Assembly (NCBI GenBank): GCA_016870535.1 | Contig: VGBK01000011.1 | Span: 1-34,750 of the forward strand | Reading direction: 5' to 3' | Origin: Actinomycetota bacterium | GTDB taxonomy: Bacteria; Actinomycetota; Acidimicrobiia; Spongiisociales; UBA11373 | DNA length: 34,750 nt | Part shown: positions 14,979 to 33,324 of the stretch, piece by piece | How positions within the stretch are numbered: the stretch's first letter is position 1 | How the letters are laid out: each line of letters starts with the position of its first letter | Position numbers and translations under genes: made by a program | Notes under the pieces: model-generated | Told to the model about the DNA's origin: nothing | What the model saw: only the letters and a program-made list of their open reading frames with translations | Database searches by the model: none

Positions 14979-15021
14979 GAGGTCCCACCCTAGAACGACG
15001 GGCGTCAAGGCGGGCTAACGG

Positions 15022-15885: not shown

Positions 15886-15927
15886 GGCGCGCCTGAACCT
15901 CCGGAACCGGGCGTCACCGTAGCCGAC

Positions 15928-15936
15928 TTATCCACA
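15928..15936. promoter_or_regulatory. Perfect-match DnaA box TTATCCACA upstream of the DNA methyltransferase gene
   Basis: Exact 9-mer TTATCCACA at 15928-15936, 43 nt upstream of methyltransferase ATG at 15885. Confidence 0.4.
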
Positions 15937-15959
15937 GCACCCGCGGAAATCGCCGCGGC

Positions 15960-16520
15960 CTACTCGGCGCGGGCCTTCTCGGCCGCCCGCCGCAGCCCCC
16001 CCGACGCCGCCTGCAGGGCTACCTTCCCCCAGGCGGCCACCTCCCGCACCGCGCCCCCCAGCCACCGCCACCGATCGGCCCCGCCGGGCCCACGGGCCGG
16101 GTCTCCCCCCGCCGTCAGTCCCATGCGGCGAAAGAGGAAGAGCGCCCGGGGCAGGTGATAGCGGTCGGTGACCACCACCACCCGGTCCCACCCCCCGGCC
16201 CGGGCCAGGCGAGCCACTGCCGCCGCCTGCGCCAGCGTGCTGGTGGATTCCTCCTCGAGAAGCAGGCGGTGCTCGGGCACCCCCAGGCGGCGGGCCAGAT
16301 CGGCCATGACCGAGGCCTCCGAGACCCCGGCGGCCCCCACCCCGCCCGTGAGCACCAGCCACCTCGCCCGGTCTCTCCGGAGCGCCTCCACCCCGTGCGA
16401 AACCCGGCGCCGCACCGCCGGCGCCGGGTGCCCGGGGCCGAGCACCTGGGCACCCAGCACCACCACGGCGTCCGCCGCGCCGGCACCCGGGTCTCCCTCG
16501 GGGGGAGTCCCGCGCCTCAC
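15960..16520 (-). CDS. YdcF/SanA (DUF218) family protein
   Basis: ADAVVVLGAQVLGPGHPAPAVRRRVSHGVEALRRDRARWLVLTGGVGAAGVSEASVMADLARRLGVPEHRLLLEEESTSTLAQAAAVARLARAGGWDRVVVVTDRYHLPRALFLFRRMGL. Confidence 0.88.
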   Translation of the reverse strand: MRRGTPPEGDPGAGAADAVVVLGAQVLGPGHPAPAVRRRVSHGVEALRRDRARWLVLTGGVGAAGVSEASVMADLARRLGVPEHRLLLEEESTSTLAQAAAVARLARAGGWDRVVVVTDRYHLPRALFLFRRMGLTAGGDPARGPGGADRWRWLGGAVREVAAWGKVALQAASGGLRRAAEKARAE

Positions 16521-16657
16521 TGCCCGATCACGGCGCCAGCCTACGAGAGGACCGCAGCAGATGGGGCCGGCCCGAGTGGAATAGGCCCCGCCCGGCGGGT
16601 ATAGTCCCGGCGGCTCAAGGCGCGTGGGGTCGCGCACGACTCCTCTCGCCCCGGCTA

Positions 16658-16677
16658 GCCCGCCGGCTTCGGCGGGC
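16658..16677 (+). promoter_or_regulatory. Hairpin in the 5' leader of the sugar-binding protein gene
   Basis: Perfect 8-bp stem GCCCGCCG-GCTT-CGGCGGGC ending 27 nt before the ATG at 16705. Confidence 0.4.
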
Positions 16678-16704
16678 AGTGATCCCCTAGAGAGGAAAGC
16701 ACGA

Positions 16705-18018
16705 ATGCGTAAGCACTGGAAGGTGCTCGTAGGCCTGGTGCTGGTGCTCGGTCTCGTAGCCGCCGCCTGCGGCGACGACGCCGCCACCACCACCGCGGCC
16801 CCCACCACCACCGCGGCCCCCACCACCACCGCGGCCCCCACCACCACCGCGGCCCCCACCACCACCGCGGCCCCCACCACCACCGCGGCCGCGGCGCCCC
16901 TGCTGGTGTGGGCCGATGAGACCCGCGTGCCGATCATCGAGGCCGTCGCCGCCGAGTTCCAGGCGGCTACCGGCGTGCCGGTGCAGGTCGAGCTGGTCGG
17001 CTTCGGCGACATCCGCGCCAACATGGTCCAGCAGGCCCCGCTCGGTGAGGGTGCCGACGTCTTCATCGGCGCCCACGACTGGATCGGCGAACTCGTGGTG
17101 AACGGCGTCGTGGAGCCCATCGAGCTCGGCGGCCGCGCCGCGGAGTTCTTCAACGTGGCGCTCGACGCCTTCAGCTACGACGGCAAGCGCTACGGCCTGC
17201 CCTACGCCATCGAGGCCATCGGCCTGTACCGCAACACCGACCTGGTGCCGGACGCCCCGGAGACCTTCGAGGACCTGCTCGCCATCTGCGACGAGCTGGG
17301 TGACACCGTCGACCAGTGCCTGGCCCTCCCGGCCGGCGGCGACGCCTATCACCACTATCCCTTCCTGGCCTCCACCGGCGGGTACATCTTCGCCTGGGAC
17401 GGCACCTCGTACGACCCGGCCGACGTGGGCCTCGACACCGCAGGCGCCATCGCCGGCTTCGAGTTCTTCGACGGCCTCGTCAAGGACGGGTACATCGATC
17501 CCGCCGTGGACTACGGCGTGATGACCAACCTGTTCTACAACAACCAGGCCGCCTTCATGTGGACCGGCCCCTGGGCCCTGCCCGACGTGAAGGCCGCCGT
17601 CGCGGCCGGCACGCTGTCCGGCTACGCCACCAGCCCGCTGCCCGACATCCTGGACAACACCGCCACCCCGTTCGTGGGGGTGCAGGGCTTCATGGTGAAC
17701 GCCTTCAGCGAGCAGAAGGCCCTGGCCCAGACGTTCGTGCTGGACTACATCGCCACCGTCGATGTCATGACCCAGCTGTACGAGGTCGGCCTGCGCGCCC
17801 CGGCGCACATCGACGCGTTCAACGCCGTCGCCGCCGACCCCGACGTCCAGGCCTTCGGCGAGTCGGCCTCCGCCGGCAACCCCATGCCGAACATCCCCGA
17901 GATGTCCTCGGTCTGGGGTGCCCTGGGCGACGCCGTTCAGGCGATCTACACCCAGAGCGCCGATGCCGCCACCGCGCTGGCCACGGCCGCCGCGGCCGTG
18001 CGCGAAGCCATCGGCTGA
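16705..18018 (+). CDS. malE: Maltose-type extracellular solute-binding lipoprotein
   Basis: Lipobox LVLGLVAAACGDD; LLVWADETRVPIIEAVAAEFQAATGVPVQVELVGFGDIRANMVQQAPLGEGADVFIGAHDWIGELVVNGVVEPIEL...FFNVALDAFSYDGKRYGLPYAIEAIGLYRNTDLV...; followed by malF/malG-type permeases. Confidence 0.94.
   Translation: MRKHWKVLVGLVLVLGLVAAACGDDAATTTAAPTTTAAPTTTAAPTTTAAPTTTAAPTTTAAAAPLLVWADETRVPIIEAVAAEFQAATGVPVQVELVGFGDIRANMVQQAPLGEGADVFIGAHDWIGELVVNGVVEPIELGGRAAEFFNVALDAFSYDGKRYGLPYAIEAIGLYRNTDLVPDAPETFEDLLAICDELGDTVDQCLALPAGGDAYHHYPFLASTGGYIFAWDGTSYDPADVGLDTAGAIAGFEFFDGLVKDGYIDPAVDYGVMTNLFYNNQAAFMWTGPWALPDVKAAVAAGTLSGYATSPLPDILDNTATPFVGVQGFMVNAFSEQKALAQTFVLDYIATVDVMTQLYEVGLRAPAHIDAFNAVAADPDVQAFGESASAGNPMPNIPEMSSVWGALGDAVQAIYTQSADAATALATAAAAVREAIG
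16786..16890 (+). repeat. In-frame 18-bp tandem repeat ACCACCACCGCGGCCCCC (about 6 units) encoding TTTAAP linker
   Basis: Five identical full copies (16786-16875) plus a sixth partial copy, direct reading. Confidence 0.95.
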
Positions 18019-18039
18019 GCCGCAGCCACCACGACTGAA

Positions 18040-18073
18040 CGCTGCGGGCGGGGCTCCGGCCCCGCCCGCAGCG
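18040..18073 (+). terminator. Strong intra-operon hairpin between malE- and malF-type genes
   Basis: Perfect 15-bp stem CGCTGCGGGCGGGGC-TCCG-GCCCCGCCCGCAGCG, 21 nt after malE stop; no T-tract. Confidence 0.7.
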
Positions 18074-18136
18074 CGTGCGAGGGCCGGCACCACGGCACTA
18101 GCATCCCCGCCAACCCGAGAGGAAGGGCACAGGGAG

Positions 18137-20017
18137 GTGAGCTTCTTCCGGCGCCACGGGCCGGGCTGGTGGATCCGCTTCTTCGGCCTGGCCTTGCTCG
18201 ACGGCATCGTGATCGCCCTCATCCCCACCTTGTGGGAGCAGCGCGCCACCGTCGCCCTCGTCTGCATCCTGGTGGGGGCGGCCGGCATCAACTACATCTT
18301 CCTCTCCAGCCGCACCATCCCCATCCGCTGGCTGGTGCCGGGCCTCTTCTTCCTGGCGCTCATGATGCTCTGGCCCATCGTGTTCACGGTGTACATCGCG
18401 CTGACCAACTGGTCCACCGGCAACTTCATCACCAAGGACCAGGCCATCGACCGTCTCACCGAGGGCGGGGCCTACCTCATCGAGACCGAGGATTCGCCGC
18501 TCGCCGCCATGTACCTGTATCGGGACCCGAGCATCCCCACCACCCGGCTCGACCCCATCGCCGATCTCAAACTCCTCGTCGTCACCGACCTCGGCGAGTT
18601 CTTCTACGGATCCCCTCGCCTGCGCACCGCCCCCGCCCCCGACGAACCCGAACTGGAGTGCTGCGTCTCCCCACGAGTCGACGAGGAGCACGCCGCACGC
18701 CTGGGAGCCGAGAGCCTGGCCGAACTGAACGCGGTGGACGAAGACGGCGACGGGATCCCCGAAACGATCGGAGGGCACGCCAAGCTCCGGCTGCTGGACA
18801 TCGGCACCGTCAGCGGCGTCCTGGACCAGTTGGTACTCGACGTCCCCGGCCGCGGCCAGGCCCGGGCCCGCACCTTCTCCTCCGCGGTCCTCGCCGAGCA
18901 GCGCTTCGTCTACGACCGGGCCCGGGACGCCCTGATCGACCGCCTGAACGACGATGCTCTCTGCCCGGCCCAGGGGGCGTCCTTCGTCTGCGCGGAGCGC
19001 CGGGTCGACCCCGGATGGCGGGAGTTCCAGGGCTTCGACAACTTCACCCGGATCGTCGGCGACGAGCGCATCCGCACCCCGTTCCTGCGCATCTTCGTAT
19101 GGAATGTGATCTTCGCCGCCGCGGTGGTGCTGCTCCAGTTGAGCCTGGGCATGGCCCTGGCACTGACCCTCGACGACCGGCGCATGAAGGGCCGCGGGCT
19201 GTACCGCTCGCTGCTGCTCATCCCCTGGGCCGCCCCCGGGTTCATCGTGATCCTGGTGTGGCGCGGCCTGCTCAATCCCTCCTTCGGGCCGGTCAACAAC
19301 CAGTTGGAGGCGCGCTGGCTGGCCGACCTGTCCCGCTCCACCTGGCCCCGCTGGCTGGTGGCGGTGGCTCTGGTGGCCTGCGCCGCCGTCCTCATCTGGA
19401 TGGCGTCGGGCATGCTGCGCCGCCGCCGCTGGTTCGCCACCTTCTTCTCACTGGTTGGGGCGGCCGTAGTGGCCTGGTTCGTCTACAAGATCCTCGGCCC
19501 CGGGTTCGCGGTGCGCAACGTGGGCATCCCCTGGGTGCAGCCCGGCGACTGGTTCTGGTCCAAGGTGGCGGTGATCGTGGTCACCATGTGGCAGGGCTTC
19601 CCCTACTTCTTCCTCATCTGCACCGGCGCCCTGCAGGCCATCCCCTCCGAGATGAAGGAGGCGGCCAAGGTCGACGGCGCCTCGCCCTTCCAGGTGTTCT
19701 GGAAGGTCACCTTCCCGCTCCTCATGGTGGGCATCGCCCCGCTGCTCATCGCCTCCTTCGCCTTCAACTTCAACGCCTTCGTCAACATCTTCCTGCTCAC
19801 CGCAGGAGGGCCTCCGGTCGCGGGCTATGCCGTGCCCTTTGGGGAGACCGACATCCTGATCTCCTTCGTCTTCAATCTGGCGGTGGAGAGCGGCCGGGGC
19901 GGCCAGTACGCCCTGGCGGCGGCGGCCACCTTCTTCATCTTCTTCATCGTGGCCACCATCTCGGCCATCAGCTTCCGCTTCACCCGGAGACTGGAGGAGA
20001 TCTATGGCAGCCTCTGA
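18137..20017 (+). CDS. malF: MalF-type sugar ABC transporter permease with large periplasmic loop and extra insertion
   Basis: FDNFTRIVGD...VWNVIFAAAVVLLQLSLGMALALTLDD...YRSLLLIPWAAPGFIVILVWRGLLNPSFGPVN...TMWQGFPYFFLICTGALQAIPSEMKEAAKVDGASPFQVFWKVTFPLL (EAA loop). GTG start 18137 preceded by GGGAG. Confidence 0.92.
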   Translation: MSFFRRHGPGWWIRFFGLALLDGIVIALIPTLWEQRATVALVCILVGAAGINYIFLSSRTIPIRWLVPGLFFLALMMLWPIVFTVYIALTNWSTGNFITKDQAIDRLTEGGAYLIETEDSPLAAMYLYRDPSIPTTRLDPIADLKLLVVTDLGEFFYGSPRLRTAPAPDEPELECCVSPRVDEEHAARLGAESLAELNAVDEDGDGIPETIGGHAKLRLLDIGTVSGVLDQLVLDVPGRGQARARTFSSAVLAEQRFVYDRARDALIDRLNDDALCPAQGASFVCAERRVDPGWREFQGFDNFTRIVGDERIRTPFLRIFVWNVIFAAAVVLLQLSLGMALALTLDDRRMKGRGLYRSLLLIPWAAPGFIVILVWRGLLNPSFGPVNNQLEARWLADLSRSTWPRWLVAVALVACAAVLIWMASGMLRRRRWFATFFSLVGAAVVAWFVYKILGPGFAVRNVGIPWVQPGDWFWSKVAVIVVTMWQGFPYFFLICTGALQAIPSEMKEAAKVDGASPFQVFWKVTFPLLMVGIAPLLIASFAFNFNAFVNIFLLTAGGPPVAGYAVPFGETDILISFVFNLAVESGRGGQYALAAAATFFIFFIVATISAISFRFTRRLEEIYGSL

Positions 20018-21188
20018 TCCGGGCGCAACGACTGCGGTGGAGCTCACTCGCGTGGGCAAGACGCGTCGCCACATGAGCCCGCGCCGCTACTTCCGCGAGA
20101 TCGGCTGGCGGCACCTGGTAGGGCTGGTGGCCCTGGCCTTCGCCCTGTTCCCCCTCGCCTGGGTGATCTCGTCCTCGATCAACACCGTCGACACCCTCAC
20201 CACGGCCCGCTTCATCCCCAAGTCGACCACCTTCAACAACTACGCAAAGCTGTTCGAGGGGTGCAGTTGGGACGCCGGCCTGCCGCCTTTCAAGTGCGCC
20301 AACACCACCCCCATGCCCATCTTCCTGTGGAACTCGGTGAAGATCGCCCTCATCGCCGCCACCATCCAGTTGGCCCTGTCCGCCCTGGCCGCCTACTCGT
20401 TCGCCCGGCTGCGCTGGAGGGGCCGCCGCATCGGCCTCATCGCCATCCTCCTCATCCAGATGTTCCCCCAGTTCCTCGCCTTCGTGGCCCTCTTCCTGCT
20501 GCTCGACACCCTGGGGCAGACCTTCGGGACGGCCACCCAGGTGAGCCTCTGGGTGGTGGCCGTCCCCCTGGCGGCGATCACCGCCCTGGTGGCCCTGGTC
20601 GCCAGCCGCTCGGACTGGCAGCGCTCCGCCAAGCGCAGCGCCTACATCGCCGCCGGGGTGGGAGGGGCGGTGCTGGCCTGGGCGCTGATCGGGCAGTTCG
20701 CCGACACCGTCTGGCCGTTTGTGGCGAACTACCAGGTGACCATCTTCCCCCGCATCAGCCTGGGCACCCACACCGGCCTGGTGCTGGTCTACCTGGGCGG
20801 CGCCATCGGGGTGAACACCTGGCTGCTGAAGGGCTTCATGGACTCCATCCCCACCTCGCTCGACGAGGCGGCCAAGGTGGACGGGGCCAGCGAGTGGGAC
20901 GTGTTCTCCAAGATCATCGTGCCGCTGGCCCGGCCCATCCTGATCGTGGTCTTCATCCTCACCTTCGTGGGCCTGTACAACGAGTACATCCTGGCCAGCG
21001 TGCTCATCCGCGACGTGCAGCAGTTCACCTATGCCACCGGGTTGGCGCTGTTCGTGGAGAGCGAGTACGCCGCCAAGTGGGGCCAGCTGTCGGCCGCCGC
21101 GGTGCTGGGCACCATGCCGATCCTGGTGATCTACTGGACCCTGCAGGACCGGATCGTCGGCGGCCTCAGCGGCGCCGTCAAGGGGTAG
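20004..21188 (+). CDS. malG: MalG-type sugar ABC transporter permease
   Basis: FNNYAKLFEG...FLWNSVKIALIAATIQLALSALAAYSFARLRW...IQMFPQFLAFVALFLLLDTLG...NTWLLKGFMDSIPTSLDEAAKVDGASEWDVFSKIIVPLARPILIVVFILTFVGLYNEYILASVLIRD. Confidence 0.94.
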   Translation: MAASDPGATTAVELTRVGKTRRHMSPRRYFREIGWRHLVGLVALAFALFPLAWVISSSINTVDTLTTARFIPKSTTFNNYAKLFEGCSWDAGLPPFKCANTTPMPIFLWNSVKIALIAATIQLALSALAAYSFARLRWRGRRIGLIAILLIQMFPQFLAFVALFLLLDTLGQTFGTATQVSLWVVAVPLAAITALVALVASRSDWQRSAKRSAYIAAGVGGAVLAWALIGQFADTVWPFVANYQVTIFPRISLGTHTGLVLVYLGGAIGVNTWLLKGFMDSIPTSLDEAAKVDGASEWDVFSKIIVPLARPILIVVFILTFVGLYNEYILASVLIRDVQQFTYATGLALFVESEYAAKWGQLSAAAVLGTMPILVIYWTLQDRIVGGLSGAVKG

Positions 21189-21213
21189 CCGGGAGCCGCC
21201 GCCCGCTCGACCC

Positions 21214-21378
21214 TCAGGCCGGCGTGGGAGCCTGCCCGGGGGCAGCAGCAGACGCCGCCGTCTCCTGCTGCGCGATGGCGATGATCTCCTCCCAGTCGTG
21301 CGCCAGGGCGCACCGCCCGCACAAGTTCTGCCGGTCGCGGGTGGTCACCGCGTCGGCCCCGCAACGGGAGCACCGCAT
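21214..21378 (-). CDS. Small zinc-ribbon-like protein (CxxC...CxxC)
   Basis: MRCSRCGADAVTTRDRQNLCGRCALAHDWEEIIAIAQQETAASAAAPGQAPTPA; two CxxC pairs. Confidence 0.6.
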   Translation of the reverse strand: MRCSRCGADAVTTRDRQNLCGRCALAHDWEEIIAIAQQETAASAAAPGQAPTPA

Positions 21379-21467
21379 GGGCCTTCTCCTCGGGTGTCGG
21401 CTGAGGGTCAATCGGCAGCGGGGCGGCCCAACTTGACGGTCCGGCCCCCCGCGCCGATCGCGCCGCC

Positions 21468-23612
21468 TCAGCCTCTCAGCACCCGCTCCGCCAGGATCAT
21501 GGCCAGGTCCTTGACGGCCACCTCTTCGTCTCGGCCCAGGTCCTTCACCCCGTCATCGAGCATCACGTAGCAGAAGGGGCATCCGGTGGCGATGGTGGCC
21601 GCTCCGGTGGCCAGCGCCTCCTCGGTGCGCTCCACGTTGACCTTCTTGCCGGTGTGCTCCTCCATCCACATCTGGGCGCCACCCGCTCCGCAGCAGAAAG
21701 AGCGCTGCTTGGTGCGCTCCATCTCGGCGAGCCGTCCGCCCGCCGCCCGCAGCAGCCGGCGCGGGGCGTCGTACTCGTCGTTGTGCCGGCCCAGGTAGCA
21801 CGGGTCGTGGAAGGTCACCTTGCCGTCGGCCTTGCCGTTCGGCTTGAGCCGGCCCTGCTTGATGAGGTCCATGAGGAACCGGCTGTGGTGAATTACCTCG
21901 TAGTGCCCGCCGAACTGCGGGTACTCGTTGGCCAGGGTGTTGAAGCAGTGCGGGCACTGGGTGATGATCTTGGTCACGCCCGCCTCGTTGAGGGTGGCGA
22001 TGTTCTGCAACGCCAGCGTTTGGAAGAGGTACTCGTTTCCCGCCCGTCGCGCCGGGTCCCCGGTGCAGAGCTCCCGGGGGCCCAGGATGGCGAAGTCCAC
22101 CCCGGCGGCATGCAGCAGGCGGGCGGTCGACAGGGTCACCTTGCGGTTCCGGTCGTCGAACGACCCGGCGCAGCCCACCCAGTACAGGTACTCGGCGGTG
22201 ACGCCGGGCTCCCCCAGCACCTTGACCGGGAAGTCCACCTCACGGGTCCAGGCGGCCCGTTCCTGCTGGCTCATCCCGTAGGGGTTGGACGAGTTCTCCA
22301 TGCTGATGAAGGCGTTCCCCAGCTGGCTGGGGAAGTCGGCCTCCATGAGGGCCAGGTACCGCCGCATGTCGAGGATCTTGTCGAGGATCTCGATGTCCAC
22401 CGGGCAGACCTGCTCGCAGGCCCGGCAGGTGGTGCAGGCCCACAACTCGGCGGCGGTGATGCGCTCGAACACCGAATCCGAGCCGACGGTGATCTCGGCG
22501 TCGACTCCCACCGGCGGGGAGACGACGGGGGAGCCGGTGCGCGTCATGACCTCGCCGAGTTTGAGCACGATCTCGCGCGGGTCCAGGGGCTTCCCGGTGT
22601 GGTTGGCCGGGCACACCGAGGTGCAGCGGCCGCAGATGGTGCAGGCGTCGGTGTCGTATAGCTGCTTCCAGGTGAACTCCCCGACCTTGGACGCGCCCAC
22701 CGTTTCGATGTCGGTGGCCTCGAGCAGGTTGGGCATCTCGCGCATCGCCCCCTTGGGCCGGGTGCGGGCCGAGAGGGCCATGTTCACCGGCGAGGTGATC
22801 AGGTGCCGCAGCTTGGTCACCGGGAGCACCACCACGAAAGCACCGAACGAGACGGCGTGGACAATCCAGGCGACCTGGTGCGCCACCCGGGCGGACTCGG
22901 CGGAGAAGAGGTAGGAGAGGTACCAGCCGGCGAAGGACCACACCTCGTAGGGCGGCCGCCCTTCCAGGCTGAGCCGGGCGGCCTCGGTGAGAAAGCCGGT
23001 GACCCCGATGGCGAAGAGGAGGAACAGGATCCAGGCGTCCTCCGGCTTGGTCTTGGTGCGCAGCCGCAGCGGGGGGAACAGGTAGCGGCGCGCCGCCGCT
23101 CCGACGACTCCGGCGATGAACACCAGGCCGGCGATCTCGAGGACGAACGAGTAGCCCTGGTAGAACCCGCCTTCCAGGAACTTGAGGTTGTTGGGCAGCA
23201 GGTGGTCCAGTTCGAGGGTGGCGGTGCCCAGAAAGAGCACCACGAAGCCGTAGAAGATCATGGCGTGGAAGACCCCGGTCACCCGGTCCTCCAGGACCGA
23301 GGCCATGGTGACCCCGCGCAGGAACTCCTTGGCCCGGCGAGCCCACATGCCCAGGCGCCGGTCCTTCGTCCCCCGCTCCCAGTTGCGCGCCCGCAGCGAG
23401 AACAGGTACACCGCCACGCCCAGGGCGAGGCCGGTGGCGACGTAGAAGAGGATGATCAGCGGCTCCGGGATGTTGCCGAAGATGTGGCGCCCGATGTCGA
23501 ACTTGGGCTTGGCGGGCAGCAGGCTGAGCGCCCAGAAGCCGAGCGTCACCAACGGCATGGCGACGGCCAGGGCGAGCAGCAGACGGGAGACGGTGAGGCG
23601 GCGCTTCTCCAT
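21468..23612 (-). CDS. Membrane-bound Fe-S oxidoreductase (HdrD-like CCG domains, Rv0338c/EMO-type)
   Basis: N-terminal multi-TM domain with conserved His; CTICGRCTSVCPANHTGKPLDPR and CTTCRACEQVCPVDIEILDKILDMRR (2x4Fe-4S); YWVGCAGSFDDRNRKV...LCTGDPARRAGNEYLFQ and FHDPCYLGRHNDEYDAPR...SFCCGAGGAQMWMEE. Confidence 0.92.
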   Translation of the reverse strand: MEKRRLTVSRLLLALAVAMPLVTLGFWALSLLPAKPKFDIGRHIFGNIPEPLIILFYVATGLALGVAVYLFSLRARNWERGTKDRRLGMWARRAKEFLRGVTMASVLEDRVTGVFHAMIFYGFVVLFLGTATLELDHLLPNNLKFLEGGFYQGYSFVLEIAGLVFIAGVVGAAARRYLFPPLRLRTKTKPEDAWILFLLFAIGVTGFLTEAARLSLEGRPPYEVWSFAGWYLSYLFSAESARVAHQVAWIVHAVSFGAFVVVLPVTKLRHLITSPVNMALSARTRPKGAMREMPNLLEATDIETVGASKVGEFTWKQLYDTDACTICGRCTSVCPANHTGKPLDPREIVLKLGEVMTRTGSPVVSPPVGVDAEITVGSDSVFERITAAELWACTTCRACEQVCPVDIEILDKILDMRRYLALMEADFPSQLGNAFISMENSSNPYGMSQQERAAWTREVDFPVKVLGEPGVTAEYLYWVGCAGSFDDRNRKVTLSTARLLHAAGVDFAILGPRELCTGDPARRAGNEYLFQTLALQNIATLNEAGVTKIITQCPHCFNTLANEYPQFGGHYEVIHHSRFLMDLIKQGRLKPNGKADGKVTFHDPCYLGRHNDEYDAPRRLLRAAGGRLAEMERTKQRSFCCGAGGAQMWMEEHTGKKVNVERTEEALATGAATIATGCPFCYVMLDDGVKDLGRDEEVAVKDLAMILAERVLRG

Positions 23613-23738
23613 GGGCCTTTCCCTCGGGGCTGCCCCGGAGTCTAAAGGAGTGTTAACCGGGCTTCACCTCGCCGGCGGCGAGCGCACCCGGCGCGCCGGT
23701 GGCGGCCCTCGCCTCAGCCCCGGCCGCGCGGGCGCGCG

Positions 23739-24896
23739 TCAAGTGCGACGCGAGGTGCCCCGGGCCGCCGCTTCCCAATACCCCTCGATCAACGCCGCGG
23801 CGGCGGCATCCACGACCGCCGAGGTGCTCCCCCGCCCGAGGCTGAGCCGTACGCTGCCCAGGGCGATCGCGGGTTCCAGGCCCATAGCGAGCAGCACCTC
23901 CGAGGGGCTGGGGTCCTCCTCATGGCAGGCCGAACCGGTGGTGGCGGCCACCCGCGGAGTCGCCGCCAGCACGCTGCTGCCGCCGACTCCGGGGAACGAG
24001 ATGTTGAGGGTGTTGGGCAGCACCCGGCGCGGATGACCGTTGCGGCGCAACCCCGGAATGGCGGCGCGCAGGCGCTCCCAGAGCCGGTCCCGTTCGCGCG
24101 CCTGACGGGCGGCCTCTGCCTCCAGATCTGCCCCGGCACGCCGGCAGGCGGCGCCCAGGCCCACGATGGAAGCCACGTTCTCCGTTCCCGGGCGCCGCCC
24201 CTGCTCCTGCCCCGCCCCGCGCAGCACCGGGCCGAGACGGACGCCCCGGCGCACGTAGAGAGCGCCCACCCCCTTCGGCGCGTACATCTTGTGCCCGGCG
24301 ATCGAAAGCAGGTCGATCCCCAACTCGTCCACCCGCAGCGGCACCTTGCCCAAGGCCTGGGCCGCGTCGGCGTGCGTCACCGCTCCCCGGGCGCGAGCGA
24401 TCTCCGCCAGTTCTCGCACCGGCTGCAGGGTGCCGGTCTCGTTCTGCGCGAGGATGACGGTGAGCAGCGCGGGCCCGTCGTCCAGGAGGGCTGCGGCCTC
24501 GTCCAGAGACACCAAGCAGTCGCCGTCCACCTGCAGGCGATCCACCCTCCAGCCCTCCCGGTTGAGCCAGGCGCACGGTTCGGCGGTGGCCGGGTGCTCC
24601 ACCACCGTGGTGACCACCGCGCGCCGGGCGGCGGCCGCCGCCACCCCGAGAATCGCCAGGTTGTTGGCCTCGGTCCCGCCGGAGGTGAAGACCACCTCGG
24701 CCGGCAGCGCTCCGATGAGTGCGGCCACCTCCTCCCGGGCGGCGTCGACCGCCGACCGGGCTCTCTTCCCCGGCGCGTGGCTGCTGGAGGGATTGCCGTG
24801 GTGGGTCGTCAGGAAGGGAAGCATGGCTTCCAGCACTTCGGGCAAGAGGGGAGTGGTGGCGTTGTGGTCCAGATAGATCGGCTCGGTCTCGGGCAC
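23739..24896 (-). CDS. Cysteine desulfurase (NifS/IscS family)
   Basis: MPETEPIYLDHNATTPLLPEVLEAMLPFLTTHHGNPSSSH ... VVFTSGGTEANNLAI ... HADAAQALGKVPL ... LLSIAGHKMYAPKGVGALYVRRG ... TTGSACHEEDPSPSEVLLAMGL ... SVRLSLGRGST. Confidence 0.96.
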   Translation of the reverse strand: MPETEPIYLDHNATTPLLPEVLEAMLPFLTTHHGNPSSSHAPGKRARSAVDAAREEVAALIGALPAEVVFTSGGTEANNLAILGVAAAAARRAVVTTVVEHPATAEPCAWLNREGWRVDRLQVDGDCLVSLDEAAALLDDGPALLTVILAQNETGTLQPVRELAEIARARGAVTHADAAQALGKVPLRVDELGIDLLSIAGHKMYAPKGVGALYVRRGVRLGPVLRGAGQEQGRRPGTENVASIVGLGAACRRAGADLEAEAARQARERDRLWERLRAAIPGLRRNGHPRRVLPNTLNISFPGVGGSSVLAATPRVAATTGSACHEEDPSPSEVLLAMGLEPAIALGSVRLSLGRGSTSAVVDAAAAALIEGYWEAAARGTSRRT

Positions 24897-25048
24897 GAGT
24901 TCCCTCCACTGGAGCGGGCACAGTGCTGCCTCGTCATGGTACGGAGCCGGCGCGCGCTAGGTTCGGCCGAGACCGGCGGGCTGCCACCCCGTCCCGGAAT
25001 CGCCACCGGATTACCCTCCGCGAGCGCTGCCGCCGGATCGGAGATGCC

Positions 25049-25228
25049 ATGGCCACCACCCTGTTCATCCTCAACGACCCTCCCTACGGCACCGAGCGCA
25101 GCTACAACGGCTTGCGCCTGGATATCCGCGGCATCCGGGACGAGAAGCCGGCCGAGGGATGCGGGCGCGGCGCCCTGGAAGGACTGGCCGAGTGGACCCA
25201 GCAGGCCGACCGGGTGCTGGTGTTCTGA
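25049..25228 (+). pseudogene. Internally deleted DsrE-family protein (59 aa); remnant or miniaturised form
   Basis: MATTLFILNDPPYGTERSYNGLRL | DIRGIRDEKPAEGCGRGALEGLAEWTQQADRVLVF: both ends match full-length (about 115 aa) DsrE-like proteins, the middle and GTCMDARG-type catalytic Cys region are missing, frame kept. Confidence 0.75.
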
Positions 25229-25237
25229 AGCCGGCAA

Positions 25238-25939
25238 GTGGAAAACGAACCGATCACCGTTGCTCCGGAGGACTACCGGCGCTGGCGCGCCCGCCCGCTG
25301 GGGGCTCTCACCGAGGCTCGCGAGATAGCCCTGGTTCTGAGCACCGCCGGGCCGCTCGCCGGCCGGCATCTGCTGGATGTCGGCTGCGGCGACGGCACCT
25401 ACGCCATAGCGGCCGCCCGCCGCGGGGCCGTCGTGTCGGCCGTCGACCGGTCGGCCGGGATGATCGACGCCGCCCGCCTCCGGGCTCGAGACCTCAGAGT
25501 GGCCGTCGAGTTCTGCCGCGCCGATGCGACCCGGCTTCCCTTCGCCACCGGCACCTTCGACCTGGTCACTGCGGTCACCGTGCTGTGCTTCGTGCCCGAT
25601 GCCGGCTCGGCCGTTCGGGAGATGGCTCGCGTGCTGGCCCCCGGCGGGAGGCTGGTCATCGGAGAACTGAATCGATGGAGCACCTGGGCCGCCTGGCGGC
25701 GCCTGCGTGCCCGCTTCGGCTCGCCCCGGTGGCGGCACGCCTCGTTCCGCTCACCCCGATCTCTGGCCCGCCTCATCCGGGACTCCGGGCTGGTGCCGGA
25801 GCGGGTGCGGGGAGCCATCTACTACCCTCCGCTCCCCTTCCTCGCCCGGGTCATGGGACCGGCCGAGCGTCCTCTCCGCGCGCTGACCACCGTAGGAGCG
25901 GCGTTCCTCGCTGCCGGGGCGGCCAAGCCTGCCCCGTAG
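25238..25939 (+). CDS. Class I SAM-dependent methyltransferase (UbiE/Methyltransf_11 type)
   Basis: AGRHLLDVGCGDGTYAIAAARRGAVVSAVDRSAGMIDAARLRA...VEFCRADATRLPFATGTFDLVTAVTVLCFVPDAGSAVREMARVLAPGGRLVIGEL. Confidence 0.93.
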   Translation: MENEPITVAPEDYRRWRARPLGALTEAREIALVLSTAGPLAGRHLLDVGCGDGTYAIAAARRGAVVSAVDRSAGMIDAARLRARDLRVAVEFCRADATRLPFATGTFDLVTAVTVLCFVPDAGSAVREMARVLAPGGRLVIGELNRWSTWAAWRRLRARFGSPRWRHASFRSPRSLARLIRDSGLVPERVRGAIYYPPLPFLARVMGPAERPLRALTTVGAAFLAAGAAKPAP

Positions 25940-25992
25940 TGGGGCACCGGCGGCCGCTAGGGCCCCTCCCCTCGACCCGGTGCCGCCCGGGC

Positions 25993-26301
25993 TCACCCCG
26001 CCAGGGCGCGCGCCAGCCAGTAGGCGGCCACCCCTCCCGCCAGCACCCCCGGCAGCGACCGGCGGGTCAACCAGCCCCCGCCCACCGCCCCGCCGAGAGC
26101 GGCATACCCGGGCACCGGGTCCTCCAAGCCCCCGGGGACCAGCAGCGTCGCGGCCGCCAGGGACACGAACAGCGCCAGCGGGAACCGCTCCAGGAAGCGG
26201 GCGAGGCGTCCGGCGGGGGCCGGCCCCGCCCGAGCCAGGAACGACACCCGGCAGCCGTAGGTGACCGCAGCCATGCCCAGGACCACGAGCAGCTCAGTCA
26301 T
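25993..26301 (-). CDS. azlD: AzlD-family branched-chain amino acid transport protein
   Basis: MTELLVVLGMAAVTYGCRVSFLARAGPAPAGRLARFLERFPLALFVSLAAATLLVPGG...; overlaps azlC by 8 bp. Confidence 0.85.
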   Translation of the reverse strand: MTELLVVLGMAAVTYGCRVSFLARAGPAPAGRLARFLERFPLALFVSLAAATLLVPGGLEDPVPGYAALGGAVGGGWLTRRSLPGVLAGGVAAYWLARALAG

Positions 26302-26962
26302 CGGGAAGCACCGCCCCCACGGCCGCGGCCACGACGGCGGCGGCGGTGATCCGCCAGGCGCTCGGCAGAATCGCGGCACCAAAGGTCGCTCCCGCGGCGA
26401 GGGCGGCCACCAGCAGATCCCACCGGCTGCGGACCAGCGGGGCCGCCAGGCCCACGAACAGCACGGCGAAGAACACCTCCGCCCCCCAGGCAGCCGGGTC
26501 GAGACGGGCCCCGAAGGCCGCTCCGGCCGCGGTGCCTGCCAGCCACCCGGAAAGCAGCAGCAGGTCCGCCGCCGCCTTGTAGGCCACCAGGTCCGGTTCG
26601 CCGCGGCGCGCCGCGGCCACGGTGAGCCCGAAGGTCTCGTCGACCAGGACCCAGGCCAGAGCGAGGCGTACCCGCGGCGGCCGGGGCCCCACCAGGCCGG
26701 CGAGGCGCGCCGACATGGGGATGTGGCGCAGCGCCAGCCCCGAGGCGGCCACCAGAACGGGCCCGGCCCCCGCCCCGGCCAGCCCTACCCAGGCGAACTG
26801 CGCCGCCCCGGAGACCACCAGCGCCGAGGCCAGGATCACCAGCCAGGTCGCCAGGCCCGCCTGTACCCCGAGGATCCCGTAGGCGACCCCAAAGGCGCCG
26901 ACGGCGACGAACAGCACCAGGCCGTCGCGCAGCCCCCGGCGAAAGGAAGGGCTGCGGAGCAT
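26294..26962 (-). CDS. azlC: AzlC-family branched-chain amino acid permease
   Basis: FRRGLRDGLVLFVAVGAFGVAYGILGVQAGLATWLVILASALVVSGAAQFAWVGLAGAG...LRHIPMSARL...LVDETFGLTVA. Confidence 0.92.
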   Translation of the reverse strand: MLRSPSFRRGLRDGLVLFVAVGAFGVAYGILGVQAGLATWLVILASALVVSGAAQFAWVGLAGAGAGPVLVAASGLALRHIPMSARLAGLVGPRPPRVRLALAWVLVDETFGLTVAAARRGEPDLVAYKAAADLLLLSGWLAGTAAGAAFGARLDPAAWGAEVFFAVLFVGLAAPLVRSRWDLLVAALAAGATFGAAILPSAWRITAAAVVAAAVGAVLPDD

Positions 26963-26990
26963 CGGGGGATGGTAGAGGCCGGCGGCTGCT

Positions 26991-27016
26991 CCCTCTCCCG
27001 GCCTGCCGGGAGAGGG
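26991..27016. repeat. REP-like palindrome copy A
   Basis: CCCTCTCCCGG-CCTG-CCGGGAGAGGG, perfect 11-bp stem, followed by CCGGGAGCGAGGA tail. Confidence 0.7.
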
Positions 27017-27149
27017 CCGGGAGCGAGGACCGCCGCCCCCTCCCGGCCTGCCCGCACCACGAGGCCGCCCGCCGGCGGCCGGCCCCTCTCCTGCTCACGC
27101 GGGAGGAGATGCTCTCTGTCCCCCTCTTCCCGCGGCTACACCGAACGCG

Positions 27150-27177
27150 CCTCTCCCGGCCAACCGGCCGGGAGAGG
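27150..27177. repeat. REP-like palindrome copy C
   Basis: CCTCTCCCGGCC-AACC-GGCCGGGAGAGG, perfect 12-bp stem sharing the CTCTCCCGG/CCGGGAGAG arms of copy A, followed by TGCCAGCAACGAGGG tail. Confidence 0.7.
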
Positions 27178-27201
27178 TGCCAGCAACGAGGGCCGGGGCC
27201 C

Positions 27202-27924
27202 CTAGCCGGTGATCCCCAGTTCCCGCTTGAGCTCCTCCAGCTTGGCATCGGCCTGGGAGACCGAGATGGCCTCGCGCAGCTCGACCTCGGCCCCCTCCGG
27301 GGTGGCCTCGCGCAACTCGGCACGCGCCATGGCTTCGGCACGCCGCGCCTCGATCTTGTCCTCCACCTTGTCGAGGCTGACCGCCTCGTCGTCGAAGGTG
27401 GCCGACATGGACTCCACGGCCTTGTTGACCGACTCCTGCATCTTCGCCTGCTGCAAGGCGCCCAGCAGCTCCATCCGCCGGGCCGCCAGCTCCTGCAAGC
27501 GCATGGCGTTCTGCTGCACCGCCCGCTTGGCCGCCTCGGCCTGGGAGGCCGCCGTCTCGTACTGGCTCTTGAGGGACGCCAGGTTGTTCTCGGCGGCCTG
27601 CAGGCGCATCGCCACCCCCTGGGCGGTGCGGGTCCACTTCTCGGCGGCCGCGCCGTCGCCGGCGGCGGTGGCCTCCTGGCCCTTCAGCAGCGCCTGCTTC
27701 GCCAGCTCGCGGGCCTCGCCGGCCTGGGTGGCCGCCCGCTCGATCTGGCTCTCCAACTGGGTGCGGTGCGCCACCACCTTGGCCGCCTGAGTGCGCAGCT
27801 CTTGATCACGCTTGCGCGCCTCGGTGATGGCCTGCTCGATCTCGATCTCCGGGTCCATCATCTTCTCGGCCTTGGTGCGGAAGAGGGTCTTGAGGTAGCC
27901 CCAGAGACGCTTGAAGAAGCCCAT
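27202..27924 (-). CDS. pspA: PspA/IM30 (Vipp1) family envelope-stress protein
   Basis: MGFFKRLWGYLKTLFRTKAEKMMDPEIEIEQAITEARKRDQELRTQAAKVVAHRTQLESQIERA...YETAASQAEAAKRAVQQN...; ATG 27924 has SD AGAAGG with 6-nt spacing. Confidence 0.92.
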   Translation of the reverse strand: MGFFKRLWGYLKTLFRTKAEKMMDPEIEIEQAITEARKRDQELRTQAAKVVAHRTQLESQIERAATQAGEARELAKQALLKGQEATAAGDGAAAEKWTRTAQGVAMRLQAAENNLASLKSQYETAASQAEAAKRAVQQNAMRLQELAARRMELLGALQQAKMQESVNKAVESMSATFDDEAVSLDKVEDKIEARRAEAMARAELREATPEGAEVELREAISVSQADAKLEELKRELGITG

Positions 27925-27938
27925 GATCATCCTTCTCT

Positions 27939-27960
27939 AGATTGCCGGCAGATTGCCGGC
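27939..27960 (-). promoter_or_regulatory. Perfect 11-bp tandem repeat just upstream of pspA
   Basis: AGATTGCCGGC x2 (27939-27949, 27950-27960). Confidence 0.45.
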
Positions 27961-27994
27961 TCAGTGTAGGGAATCGCCGCTCCCCAGCGCCGAA

Positions 27995-28020
27995 GGCGCG
28001 CCCACTTCGCCGGGCGCGCC
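27995..28020 (-). terminator. Hairpin downstream of the TPM-like gene
   Basis: GGCGCGCCC-ACTTCGCC-GGGCGCGCC, 9-bp perfect stem about 50 nt past stop at 28071; alternative small hairpin GCGCC-GAA-GGCGC overlaps it. Confidence 0.4.
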
Positions 28021-28070
28021 CGCTACAGCCCCCGGGCCCCCTCCGCGCCCCGGTGCCGACGGCGCCGCGG

Positions 28071-29387
28071 TCAGCGACGCCGCTGGATGCCGGTGCGGCC
28101 CCCCCGCGCCCGGCCCGCGGACCCGGATCCCCCCATCCTCGGCCGGCCCGCCGACCCGGATCCCCCCATCCTCGGCCGGGCCGGGGCCCCGCCCGATCCC
28201 GAGCCCCAACTCCCCGAGGTGGGTCGCGGGCCCCAGTCGTAGGAACGCGGCTGGCCCATGCCCCCGACGATCACCGCGAAGACATCCAGCCAGGAGAAGC
28301 CGCCGCCCCCGTATGAGCGGGGGGCCGCCGGGGCAGGAACCGGCCGGCCCTGCACCTCGATCATACGCGGATCGGGTTGCTCGCCGCGTCGCAGCTTGGC
28401 GGCGTCGGCGGCGCAGACCCGCACCGTCTTGTTGCCGGCGGCGGTGCGCACCTCGGCCTCCTCGAACGGGCCCTCGTGCGTGGGGTCGAAGAAGCAGGCG
28501 TGCCGCTCCTCCTTGGCGGGGCGCGGCGGCACCGGCTTCCCCCCGGCGAGGGCGGCGGCGGCGTCGAGTTGCCAGCGGGCCTCGTCCAGGCGGGCGCTGA
28601 TCTCTTCCAGACGCGCCAGTTCGGCAGCGCCCTCGTAGGACTCCGCGGCCTCGGTGAAGGTACGGCTCGCCTCCTCCAGATACTGATTGTCCTCGCGCGT
28701 CTCCGAAGCGGCGACCTCGTCGGAGATCTCGAGGATGGTGTTGGCCATGGCGTCGAGTTGAACCTTGATCTCCCGGCGGGCCTCCTCGACGGCGCGGGCC
28801 TTGCTCTGCGCCGCGCTCTTCGACTGGCGGCGCGCCGCCCACACCACCAGCAGGACCAGGCCCCCCACCAGGACGAGCAGCACGACGAGGCCGGTCTTGC
28901 CGCCTCCCCCGCCGGTCGTGGCCCCGCCGTCCTGCCCGCCGTCGACGGGCGCCCCGATGAGGGAAGCCACCACCCCCTCCACGAACTCGACATCGCCGCC
29001 CGGGGTGGCCAACCCGGCGTCGAGGGCCCGTGCCAGCGCCGCCGGGTCCTGGTCCCAGGTGGCCCACCCGGCCGTCGTCTCCGCCTTCACCAGCACCGTG
29101 CCGTCGCCGAGGCGATCGAGCACCGCATCGGCAAAGGTGGTCGCCCCGCCCGGAGGGTCGTCCATCAGGAGCACCACGAAGAGGCGCACCCCGGCGCTGC
29201 CCGCCCGGGCCACCGCCGCCGAGATCCGGCCCTCGTCGGCCGGGAGGCCCGGATCGATCCAGTACCCGTTGTCGCCCACCCGGGCGGCGACCTGGTCGGG
29301 GGTCTGGGCCCCCGCCGGAGCCGCCACCGCGACGAGCAGGCCCACGAGGACCACGAGCAGGAGCAGACGCCGCATCATGGCGACCAC
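28071..29387 (-). CDS. TPM-domain-like (TLP18.3/Psb32/MOLO-1-type) membrane protein with coiled coil and Gly/Arg-rich tail
   Basis: Signal peptide MRRLLLLVVLVGLLVAVAAPAGA; VAARVGDNGYWIDPGLPADEGRISAAVARAGSAGVRLFVVLLMDDP; central TM GLVVLLVLVGGLVLLVVWAARR; C-terminal RPRMGGSGSAGRPRMGGSGSAGRARGGRTG. Confidence 0.7.
   Translation of the reverse strand: MVAMMRRLLLLVVLVGLLVAVAAPAGAQTPDQVAARVGDNGYWIDPGLPADEGRISAAVARAGSAGVRLFVVLLMDDPPGGATTFADAVLDRLGDGTVLVKAETTAGWATWDQDPAALARALDAGLATPGGDVEFVEGVVASLIGAPVDGGQDGGATTGGGGGKTGLVVLLVLVGGLVLLVVWAARRQSKSAAQSKARAVEEARREIKVQLDAMANTILEISDEVAASETREDNQYLEEASRTFTEAAESYEGAAELARLEEISARLDEARWQLDAAAALAGGKPVPPRPAKEERHACFFDPTHEGPFEEAEVRTAAGNKTVRVCAADAAKLRRGEQPDPRMIEVQGRPVPAPAAPRSYGGGGFSWLDVFAVIVGGMGQPRSYDWGPRPTSGSWGSGSGGAPARPRMGGSGSAGRPRMGGSGSAGRARGGRTGIQRRR
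28113..28178. repeat. Two tandem 33-bp copies encoding the (RPRMGGSGSAG)2 tail
   Basis: GCCCGCSGACCCGGATCCCCCCATCCTCGGCCG at 28113-28145 and 28146-28178 with one mismatch. Confidence 0.9.
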
Positions 29388-29450
29388 TCTAGATGTCAGG
29401 CCTCAGGAAGCGGGACCGCCGCCGGCGGCCGGCGCCGGGCGGCCGCTCTC

Positions 29451-30362
29451 TCAGCGTCCGAACAGCGCGCGGGCGAAGAACCAGAGGTTGGCCGGCCTCT
29501 CGGCCAGGCGGCGGGTCAGATAGGGGTACCACGATTCGCCGTACGGAAGGTAGACCCGCACGGCGTGGCCGGCGGCGGCGAGGTCGGCTTGCAGCGAGGG
29601 ACGGATCCCGTAGAGCATCTGGAACTCGAACGGCGCCTGCCGCGAGCGCCCCAGGTCGGCGGCGGCGGCCACCAGACGGTGGTCGTGGGTGGCCACCGCG
29701 GGACGCACCTCCTCAGCGGCCATCAGCATGGCGAGCAGGGAGCGGAAAGCCTCATCCACCTGGGCCCGCCGCCGCAGCGCCACCGCCTCCGGTTCGTCGT
29801 AGGCCCCCTTGCACAGGCGGAGGTGCCCGCCCAGGGGCAGCACCCGGGCCAGGTCGGACGGAGTGCGGTGCAGGTAGGCCTGCAGCGCCAGCCCCAGGTT
29901 GCCGTGATCCGCCTGCACCCGGCAGTACCGGGCGACGGTGGCCTCGGTCAGGGCGCTCTCCTCCATGTCCACCGTCACCGTGGTCCCCACCGCCCCCGCC
30001 CGCACCGCCAGGGCGCGCAGCGACTCCTCGGCCAGGGCGTCGTCGAGACCCAGGCCCAACTGGGTGAGTTTCACCGAGATGTTGGCCTGCAGGCCCTCGG
30101 CGCCGATCCGGTCGATGCAGGCCAGGTAGTCGTCGCGGGCCTGGACGGCCAGGCGGGTATCGGAGACGTGCTCCCCCAGGTGGTCCAGGGAGACGAGGAA
30201 GCCCCGGTCGTTGAGGTGCCGCGCCACCGCCACCGCATCTTCGAGGGCCTCCCCCGCCACGAAGCGGGTGGCCACCCGGCGGCCCCAGCCGCCGGCGGTG
30301 AACACGCGGCGCACCAGGCGGCGGCGGGTGATCGCCAGCACCAGGCGGCCCAGGAGGCTCAA
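29451..30362 (-). CDS. Proline dehydrogenase (monofunctional PRODH)
   Basis: GFLVSLDHLGEHVSD ... ANISVKLTQLGLGLD ... VTVDMEESALTEATV ... LGLALQAYLHRTPSDL ... LRLCKGAYDEPEAVAL ... VATHDHRLV ... FEFQMLYGIRPSLQADLAAAGHAVRVYLPYGESWYPYLTRRLAERPANLWFF. Confidence 0.95.
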   Translation of the reverse strand: MSLLGRLVLAITRRRLVRRVFTAGGWGRRVATRFVAGEALEDAVAVARHLNDRGFLVSLDHLGEHVSDTRLAVQARDDYLACIDRIGAEGLQANISVKLTQLGLGLDDALAEESLRALAVRAGAVGTTVTVDMEESALTEATVARYCRVQADHGNLGLALQAYLHRTPSDLARVLPLGGHLRLCKGAYDEPEAVALRRRAQVDEAFRSLLAMLMAAEEVRPAVATHDHRLVAAAADLGRSRQAPFEFQMLYGIRPSLQADLAAAGHAVRVYLPYGESWYPYLTRRLAERPANLWFFARALFGR

Positions 30363-30384
30363 CGGGCCTCCCCTCGGGGAGCCC

Positions 30385-31203
30385 TCAAGGCTGCTCCACG
30401 GCGCGCCGCCCCAGTTCTCGGGACCGCTCGGCCGCCGCCCGCACCGCGTCGGCCACCAGGGCCCGGAAGCCGCGCTCTTCGAGCACGTGGACCGCGGCGG
30501 CGGTGGTGCCGCCGGGGGAGGTCACCTGGGCCCGCAACTGCTCGGGCCCGGCGTCGAGATCGGCCAGGAGCATCCCCGCCCCCCGGGCGGTCTGCTTCAC
30601 CAGGCGCTCGGCGGCATGCCGGGGGATGCCCTCCCGGATGGCCGCTTCGATGAGGGCCTCGGCGAGCAAGAACATGTAGGCCGGGCCCGTCCCCGAAACC
30701 GCAGTGACGGCGTCGAGCAGATGCTCGTCGAGGGCGATGGTCTGGCCCACCGACTCGAGGACGCCTACCGCCGCCCCTACCGCCTCCGGAGAGGCGTAGC
30801 GGCCCGTGCAATAGGCGCTCATGGCCTCGTCGAAGAGGGCCGGCGTGTTGGGCATGGCCCGCACCACCGGCACCTCGCCGAAGGCGTCCTCGAAGCGGCG
30901 GGTGGGCACCCCGGCGGCGAAGGACAGAATCACCTGGTCGGGGGTGATGGCCGGCCGGATCTGTTCGAGCAGGGCGGGGACGTCGCCGGGCTTCACCGCG
31001 ACCACCACCACGCGATGGCCCCGGACCGCCTCGGCGGCGTCCAGCAGCGTCCGCACTCCGATGCGCAGTTCTATCTCGGTCTGGCGCTCGGGGCGCCGCG
31101 CCGCCAGCACGAGTTCACGCCGTCCCCAGCCGGCGCGGAGCAGGCCACCGGCGAGCAGTTCGCCCATAGCCCCGGCCCCGAGGATGGCCACCTTGTCGTG
31201 CAC
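30385..31203 (-). CDS. proC: Pyrroline-5-carboxylate reductase
   Basis: MHDKVAILGAGAMGELLAGGLLRAG ... VVVVAVKPGDVPALLEQI ... VILSFAAGVPTRRFE ... VVRAMPNTPALFDEAMSAYCTG ... AVSGTGPAYMFLLAEALIEAAIREGIPRHAAERLVKQTARGAGMLL ... VTSPGGTTAAAVHVLEERGFRALVADAVRAA. Confidence 0.96.
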   Translation of the reverse strand: MHDKVAILGAGAMGELLAGGLLRAGWGRRELVLAARRPERQTEIELRIGVRTLLDAAEAVRGHRVVVVAVKPGDVPALLEQIRPAITPDQVILSFAAGVPTRRFEDAFGEVPVVRAMPNTPALFDEAMSAYCTGRYASPEAVGAAVGVLESVGQTIALDEHLLDAVTAVSGTGPAYMFLLAEALIEAAIREGIPRHAAERLVKQTARGAGMLLADLDAGPEQLRAQVTSPGGTTAAAVHVLEERGFRALVADAVRAAAERSRELGRRAVEQP

Positions 31204-31227
31204 GGCCGGGAGTATATGGCCGGAGCC

Positions 31228-33324
31228 TCACCCCGCTGCCGGACGCAGCCGCATCCGGGCGTCGAGAGCGGCGGCTCCTTCGCCGACGGCGTGGACCCGC
31301 ACCGGGTTCAGGTCCAACTCGATGATCTCGGGGAAGTCGGTGACCAGGCGGGTCACGGCGCGGATGACCTCTATGAGGGCGGGGAGATCCGAGGGAGCCT
31401 GCCCCCGGCGTCCCTCCAGGATGGGGAAGACCCGCAACTCGCGGAGCATGGCCTCGGCGGTGCGGCGCCCGAAGGGGGCCACCCGCAGCGAGGTGTCGCC
31501 CAGCAACTCCACGAAGATGCCGCCCATCCCCACCAGGATCACGTGGCCGAAGTTGGGGTCGTGCTTCGCCCCCACGATCAGGTCGCGCCCGGCCGGGGCC
31601 ATCGGCTGCACCAGCACCCCGGAGACCGCCGCTCCCTTGGCCCGGGACGACGCCGCCGCCATGATCTCGAAGTAGGCGGCGCGGACCCCCTCCTCCGAAC
31701 GGAGGTTCAGCTGCACCCCGCCGAAGTCCGACTTGTGAGCGATCTCCCCGCTGACCACCTTGAGGACGACCGGGTAGCCCAGTTCTTCCGCGGCGGTCAC
31801 CGCGCCTGCCTCGTCGACGGCGAGCCGGCCCGCCACCACCGGTATGCCGTAGGCGGCCGCCACCGCGATGGCCTCCTGGAGCAGGGGATCCCGGCCCTCG
31901 CGGCGGCAGCGCTCGAATACCGTCCGTACGGCCGCAGCGTCGGAAGGCCCGTCGGGCCGCCCGGCGCTGGGGGCCATCCCCCGCCCGAAGTCGCGCAGCA
32001 GAGCCAGGGCGCGCACCGCGTCGAAGGGCTCGTCGAAGATCGGGCCGGGGAGGATCCGCTTCAGGCGGGTGACCTCGACGGCGGCGGTGTTGGCGTAGAC
32101 CGCGATGGGCTTGTCGGCTTCCAGGGAGATGCGATGCAGGCGCCGGAACAACTCCTCGGATCTCGGCCCCTCGTACCCGCTGACGTAGGTGTGAAGGAAG
32201 ACCATGCCGTCCACCCCGGGCATCCCCAGCGTGGCCTCGGCGAGGTCCCCGTACACCTCGAGGTCGAACAGGTCGCCCAGATCCATGGGGTTGGTGAGCC
32301 GCACCACCTTGGCGCGGAAGCGCTCCTGCACCGCCTCCAGGAAGTCGGCGGGCAGGGTGGCCAACTCGAACCCGTTCGAGTCGCAGTCGTCGGCGGTGAT
32401 GACGGCGTGGCCCCCGGAGCGGGAGAGGACCGCCAGGCGGTTGCCCCGCAGCGGGGGCAGGGCCAGGGCCTTGAGGTAGTGCACCAGGGTCTCGGTGGAG
32501 CGGAAGCGGGCGATGCCCACCTGACGCAGGGCGGCGTCGACCACCCGATCGTCGACGGCGAGGGCGGCGGTGTGCGAGGCCGCCACCCGGCCGGCGGCGG
32601 CGCCGATGTTCGCCTTGTGCACCAGGATCGGCTTGTCGGTGCGCCGGGCCAGTTCCATCAGCCGCCGCCCGTCGCTGATCCCCTCCAGATACATGCAGAT
32701 GATGTGGGTCTCGTGGTCTTCGATGAGGTACTCGAGCAGGTCGTTCTCGTCCACATCCAGCTTGTTACCCATGGACACCAGCTTGGCCACGCCGAGGCCC
32801 TCGCTGGTGAGGGTGTTGAGGATGCTCAGCATCACCCCGCCGCTCTGGCTGAGCACCGAGATGCCCCCCGCCGGGACGGAGGGGTCGAGGATGCCGAAGG
32901 AAGTCGCCAGGCCCAGGCGCCGGTTGATCACCCCGAGGCCGTTGGGGCCGATGAAGCGGATGCCCCAGCGCGCCGCCGCTTCCTTCACCCGCTCGGCGAG
33001 GCGCCGCCCTTCCTCCCCGAACTCGCTGAACCCCCCGGTCTCGACGACCACGCGGCGCACCCCCTTGCGGCCGCACTCCTCCATGATGCCGGGGATCGCC
33101 GCCGCCGGGGTCAGGATCACCGCCAGGTCGACCTGGTCGGGGATGTCCTCGACCGACCGGTAGATGCGCCGGCCGTACAGCGACCCGCCCTTGGGGCCCA
33201 CCTCGTAGACGATCCCCCGGAAGTCGAAGGCGAGCAGGTTCATCGAGATCGTCCTGCCCAGGTTGTCCGGTTCGTTGGAGACCCCCACCACCGCCACCGT
33301 CTCCGGCTCGAAGAAGCCCCGCAT
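31228..33324 (-). CDS. Acetate/acyl-CoA ligase family (ADP-forming), fused alpha-beta
   Basis: FFEPETVAVVGVSNEPDNLGRTISMNLL ... LAVILTPAAAIPGIMEECGRKGVRRVVVETGGFSE ... GPNGLGVINRRLGL ... LSQSGGVMLSILN ... SHTAALAV ... YGIPVVAGRLAVDEAGAVTAAEELGYPVVLKVVSGEIAHKSDFGGVQLNLRSEEGV (ATP-grasp). Confidence 0.95.
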   Translation of the reverse strand: MRGFFEPETVAVVGVSNEPDNLGRTISMNLLAFDFRGIVYEVGPKGGSLYGRRIYRSVEDIPDQVDLAVILTPAAAIPGIMEECGRKGVRRVVVETGGFSEFGEEGRRLAERVKEAAARWGIRFIGPNGLGVINRRLGLATSFGILDPSVPAGGISVLSQSGGVMLSILNTLTSEGLGVAKLVSMGNKLDVDENDLLEYLIEDHETHIICMYLEGISDGRRLMELARRTDKPILVHKANIGAAAGRVAASHTAALAVDDRVVDAALRQVGIARFRSTETLVHYLKALALPPLRGNRLAVLSRSGGHAVITADDCDSNGFELATLPADFLEAVQERFRAKVVRLTNPMDLGDLFDLEVYGDLAEATLGMPGVDGMVFLHTYVSGYEGPRSEELFRRLHRISLEADKPIAVYANTAAVEVTRLKRILPGPIFDEPFDAVRALALLRDFGRGMAPSAGRPDGPSDAAAVRTVFERCRREGRDPLLQEAIAVAAAYGIPVVAGRLAVDEAGAVTAAEELGYPVVLKVVSGEIAHKSDFGGVQLNLRSEEGVRAAYFEIMAAASSRAKGAAVSGVLVQPMAPAGRDLIVGAKHDPNFGHVILVGMGGIFVELLGDTSLRVAPFGRRTAEAMLRELRVFPILEGRRGQAPSDLPALIEVIRAVTRLVTDFPEIIELDLNPVRVHAVGEGAAALDARMRLRPAAG

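Follow-up and report, generated by a model that had tools for sequence, protein, structure and literature searches.

A 59-aa dsrE-family ORF upstream of a methyltransferase gene is probably an inactivated relic of a YchN-like dsrE

The 59-aa ORF at positions 25049–25228 (+) of the window, the 34,750-nt stretch of DNA analysed here, is in all probability an inactivated relic of a YchN-like dsrE gene, and an ordinary gene relic within a decaying cluster of sulfur genes. We favour this reading because the short form occurs a single time among the matches listed, intact dsrE genes stand in the same order elsewhere, conserved C-terminal residues have been lost, the sulfide:quinone oxidoreductase (SQR)-like partner is missing and a DsrE fold is not predicted for the product. 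The same grounds bear out the 'deletion relic', one of the two readings offered in a preliminary description made from the sequence alone.

Extent of the deletion

The position, length and letters of the ORF given in the preliminary description were reproduced exactly from the window sequence, as were its intact frame, its ATG start and its TGA stop. A Shine–Dalgarno-like site (GGAG) lies 5 nt 5′ of ATG 25049. The same reading frame is also open 5′ of this codon, with a GTG at 24719; however, the codon-position GC of that upstream stretch (0.72/0.80/0.59) differs from that of the two coding parts (0.50/0.46/0.96 and 0.80/0.49/0.89), making ATG 25049 the sensible start. The product, MATTLFILNDPPYGTERSYNGLRL-DIRGIRDEKPAEGCGRGALEGLAEWTQQADRVLVF, consists of two halves joined at a deletion junction (Table 1).

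Alignment with full-length homologues showed that the 59 residues correspond to residues 1–24 and 83–117 of a 117-aa YchN-like DsrE orthologue, the intact relatives of this DsrE being about 115–117 aa long, in agreement with the length of about 115 aa first put forward. The claim of a DsrE-family ORF with a clean in-frame internal deletion is thus upheld, as both ends align to DsrE, but two of its details needed adjustment. The gap spans A25–M82 of the orthologue and therefore comprises 58 codons (174 bp, in frame) rather than about 55 residues, and the second half, while indeed the C-terminal segment, starts with the D of C-M-D-A-R-G, within the Cys motif rather than past it.

Against PF02635, the ORF scored 26.3 bits, above the gathering cut-off of 22.7, with the best stretch covering profile positions 82–116 only (the C-terminal 35 residues). 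Residues 4–24 are each the commonest residue in their column among 76 full-length homologues, and the profile score of the N-terminal half equals or exceeds that of every one of the 76. Judged by these sequence comparisons, both halves match DsrE beyond chance. Over its whole length, a full-length orthologue can be aligned with Escherichia coli YchN (PDB 1JX7; E value 9e-20); the window ORF likewise matches both ends of the family but, unlike YchN-like DsrE proteins, lacks residues 25–82, the C-G-T-C motif and half the fold.

DsrE-family proteins act via a conserved active-site cysteine, a point demonstrated in other groups of this family (PMC4175335). Both cysteines of the CxxC within VCGTCMDARG fall inside the deleted part (residues 25–82), leaving the ORF without an active-site cysteine and confirming the earlier remark that the catalytic Cys region is gone. 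Nor does the 59-aa form retain the complete α/β fold of about 115 residues: with structural elements assigned from an AlphaFold2 model of the full-length orthologue, strands β2 and β3 and their connecting helices are absent from it, as are the latter half of helix 1 and the two cysteines of CGTC.

Table 1. Features of the dsrE relic and its surroundings (window coordinates)
Feature	Position	Strand	Basis
Desulfurase–dsrE–methyltransferase block, about 2.3 kb	23672–26007		Absent at the corresponding site of the congener G001
Intact NifS/IscS-like cysteine desulfurase, divergent to the dsrE relic	23739–24896	-	PF00266, 244 bits
5′ part of the dsrE relic, residues 1–24 (β1 and first half of α1 of YchN-like DsrE)	25049–25120	+	Residues 4–24 are the majority residue in 76 homologues
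Deletion junction (CGC CTG / GAT ATC CG), net loss of 174 bp	25114–25127	+	Comparison with full-length genes at L082, L085, L009, L046 and L071
3′ part of the dsrE relic, equivalent to residues 83–117, and stop	25121–25228	+	PF02635 positions 82–116
Intact class I SAM-dependent methyltransferase, 233 aa	25238–25939	+	PF08241, 94.3 bits

Occurrence of the short form and state of the remaining sequence

The preliminary description had proposed looking for the same short form in related genomes, and this search returned none among the genomes sampled and the matches listed. Four other genomes of the family (14 genomes) carry this DsrE, all of them at full length, and it is present in 25 of the 395 genomes sampled from the class, the source genome counted; no other match crossing the junction was detected in that class sample. 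A scan of junction-spanning peptides against 84,980 species genomes returned at least 447 relatives, with no instance of the same short form among the best 80, and none was found in plasmids. Set against the full-length orthologues in the family, and against the gene order at L046 described below, the ORF is a disrupted form of an intact ancestral gene. Several dsrE copies in other draft genomes (L008, L016, L035, L041 and L069) are frame-broken or cut off, through either decay or sequencing errors. These were rejected as instances of the same deletion, since they resemble frameshifts or truncations.

Neither a full-length copy nor the missing middle part was found in the source genome, where the cut copy is the only one of this DsrE type. 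This bears on whether the organism in fact has a full-length dsrE from which 174 bp were lost in assembly or from the reads. The source assembly is a draft in 322 contigs, of which the window is one, and this leaves some room for such an artefact, but we regard it as quite improbable: the two sides of the junction share only about 3 bp, too short for repeat collapse, the middle part is nowhere else in the genome, and an assembly gap does not explain the changed residues that lie away from the junction.

These changes lie in the C-terminal half, where 5 of the 35 post-junction residues (A84I, E91K, L92P, T100A and E103G) occur in none of the 76 homologues, L92P placing a proline at a nearly strict leucine site. 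By comparison, any intact homologue has at most two residues unseen in the others. The profile score of the C-terminal half (59.0) is lower than that of every intact homologue (minimum 62.6), the sole score beneath it being that of L008, whose C-terminus is frame-broken. The unseen residues number 0 of 21 scored N-terminal positions vs 5 of 35 C-terminal ones, a difference that is not significant (Fisher p=0.085); those in the C-terminal half would fit relaxed constraint. With the same relatives as input, AlphaFold2 modelled the full-length orthologue at a mean pLDDT of 93.2; for the 59-aa form the mean was 61.4, with residues 13–18 and 23–33 below 50.

The second reading of the preliminary description, a functional, miniaturised and non-catalytic DsrE subunit, fares badly in the light of these data. 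An intact frame and a conserved N-terminus are what such a protein would have; however, the cysteines and two central strands are gone, the predicted fold is poor, conserved C-terminal residues have been lost, the genome has no full-length DsrE of this type to act as a partner, and the form was seen once only across the matches listed, the class sample and the plasmids. We consider it most improbable. The relic resembles ordinary in-frame-deletion pseudogenes in that its active site was lost by internal deletion and conserved residues were lost in the rest, but differs from ordinary pseudogenes in that start, stop and frame are intact, so that gene prediction would yield a protein of 59 aa. 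The intact frame and start, the Shine–Dalgarno-like site, the codon-position GC and the undrifted 21 N-terminal residues count against a relic and leave room for a retained role.

Gene neighbourhood and local history

The closest counterpart to the window order was found in a Candidatus Lambdaproteobacteria contig (L046; JACQHH010000184.1). There, dsrE is full length; a homologous methyltransferase gene begins 8 nt beyond it, and an SQR-like gene comes next. The methyltransferase of the window is 59 % identical to the one directly after that full-length dsrE, and the gap between the two genes is 9 nt in the window; what sets the window apart from L046 is the cut in dsrE and the lack of the SQR-like gene. 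The full-length dsrE–methyltransferase pair in L046 indicates that the two genes were paired before the deletion occurred, and the window pair is therefore best read as inherited, with dsrE cut afterwards.

Among relatives, the gene after dsrE often encodes an SQR-like flavoprotein; in several, a cysteine desulfurase lies close by, and sometimes so does this methyltransferase. The flavoprotein in question is the product of a 393-aa gene after dsrE, for which assignment as a PLP enzyme was considered and rejected. A close SQR-like gene is absent from both the source genome and its congener G001; all that either has is a 32 % paralogue shared by the family. The window desulfurase is closest to TIGR03402 (NifS), yet scores under the TIGR03402 cut-off, and its homologues are often located near dsrE (L010, L011, L014, L074, L076, L047 and others). 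More broadly, a YchN-like DsrE, an SQR-like flavoprotein, a NifS-like desulfurase and a class I methyltransferase recur as a set across phyla in varying combinations (L046, L010, L011, L014, L018, L037, L074 and L076). A literature search found no description specific to this DsrE/SQR-like/desulfurase/methyltransferase cluster.

Only one congeneric genome, G001, is available for comparison. Window positions 13474–23671 and 26008–31242 are collinear with its locus L127 at 78–82 % DNA identity, with 79 bp (L127 10231–10310) in place of the 2.3-kb block. The sulfur-handling cluster (desulfurase, dsrE and methyltransferase) would either have arrived at this site in the lineage or have been lost, perhaps with relocation, in G001. 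A related desulfurase (69 % aa identity) is located at the end of another G001 contig; a further product of that contig resembles, by eye, a serine recombinase.

In G011, a member of the same family, the methyltransferase after the SQR-like gene is truncated and frame-broken (L098 7408–7603, G011:C21) while dsrE is full length; together with the losses in the window, this remnant suggests that the cluster has decayed more than once in the family. Elsewhere in the source genome (L158 3660–6453, G000:C18), separate genes for an SQR-like flavoprotein, a DsrC-like protein and a DrsE_2 protein lie close together. This flavoprotein–DsrC–DrsE_2 module may make the cut DsrE dispensable and its loss tolerated.

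The deletion and the downstream methyltransferase

The sequences flanking the deleted part in relatives (CGCCTGGCC and TGCATGGAC in L071, and likewise in L046) share only TGG, which would fit a deletion at short homology. We infer the mechanism, the order of events and the lack of function as follows. A 174-bp deletion between these short matching bases would have taken codons 25–82 of dsrE, the in-frame outcome arising by chance and leaving the methyltransferase downstream undisturbed. Without β2, β3, the linking helices and the CxxC, the product should neither form the DsrE fold nor carry a persulfide, and the remaining sequence would be drifting. By chance, one deletion in three leaves the reading frame intact. 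Since that outcome also avoids polarity on the methyltransferase, survival of the relic needs no special function.

The methyltransferase starts at GTG 25238, 9 nt past the dsrE stop, the spacing given in the preliminary description, and the Shine–Dalgarno sequence before this GTG is weak. No methyltransferase start further upstream and no promoter-like or terminator-like match in the relic/methyltransferase region were detected. Such an arrangement, along with the in-frame state and the equally tight spacing in L046, would accommodate a sub-case of the relic in which the 59-aa frame has been repurposed as a leader ORF, its translation bringing ribosomes to the methyltransferase GTG and setting the methyltransferase level, and is kept purely for translational coupling; selection would then maintain frame and stop codon while no longer acting on the DsrE fold. 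We think this unlikely, given that the one-in-three chance accounts for the frame and that the narrow gap goes back to the ancestral operon. If true, it would offer a small, clean example of a relic retained for translational coupling.

For annotation, the relic carries a warning: Pfam calls the ORF DsrE above threshold even though the sulfur-binding cysteines and half the fold are gone, so that a survey of sulfur-metabolism genes would list a carrier which, judging from its sequence, should be unable to work.
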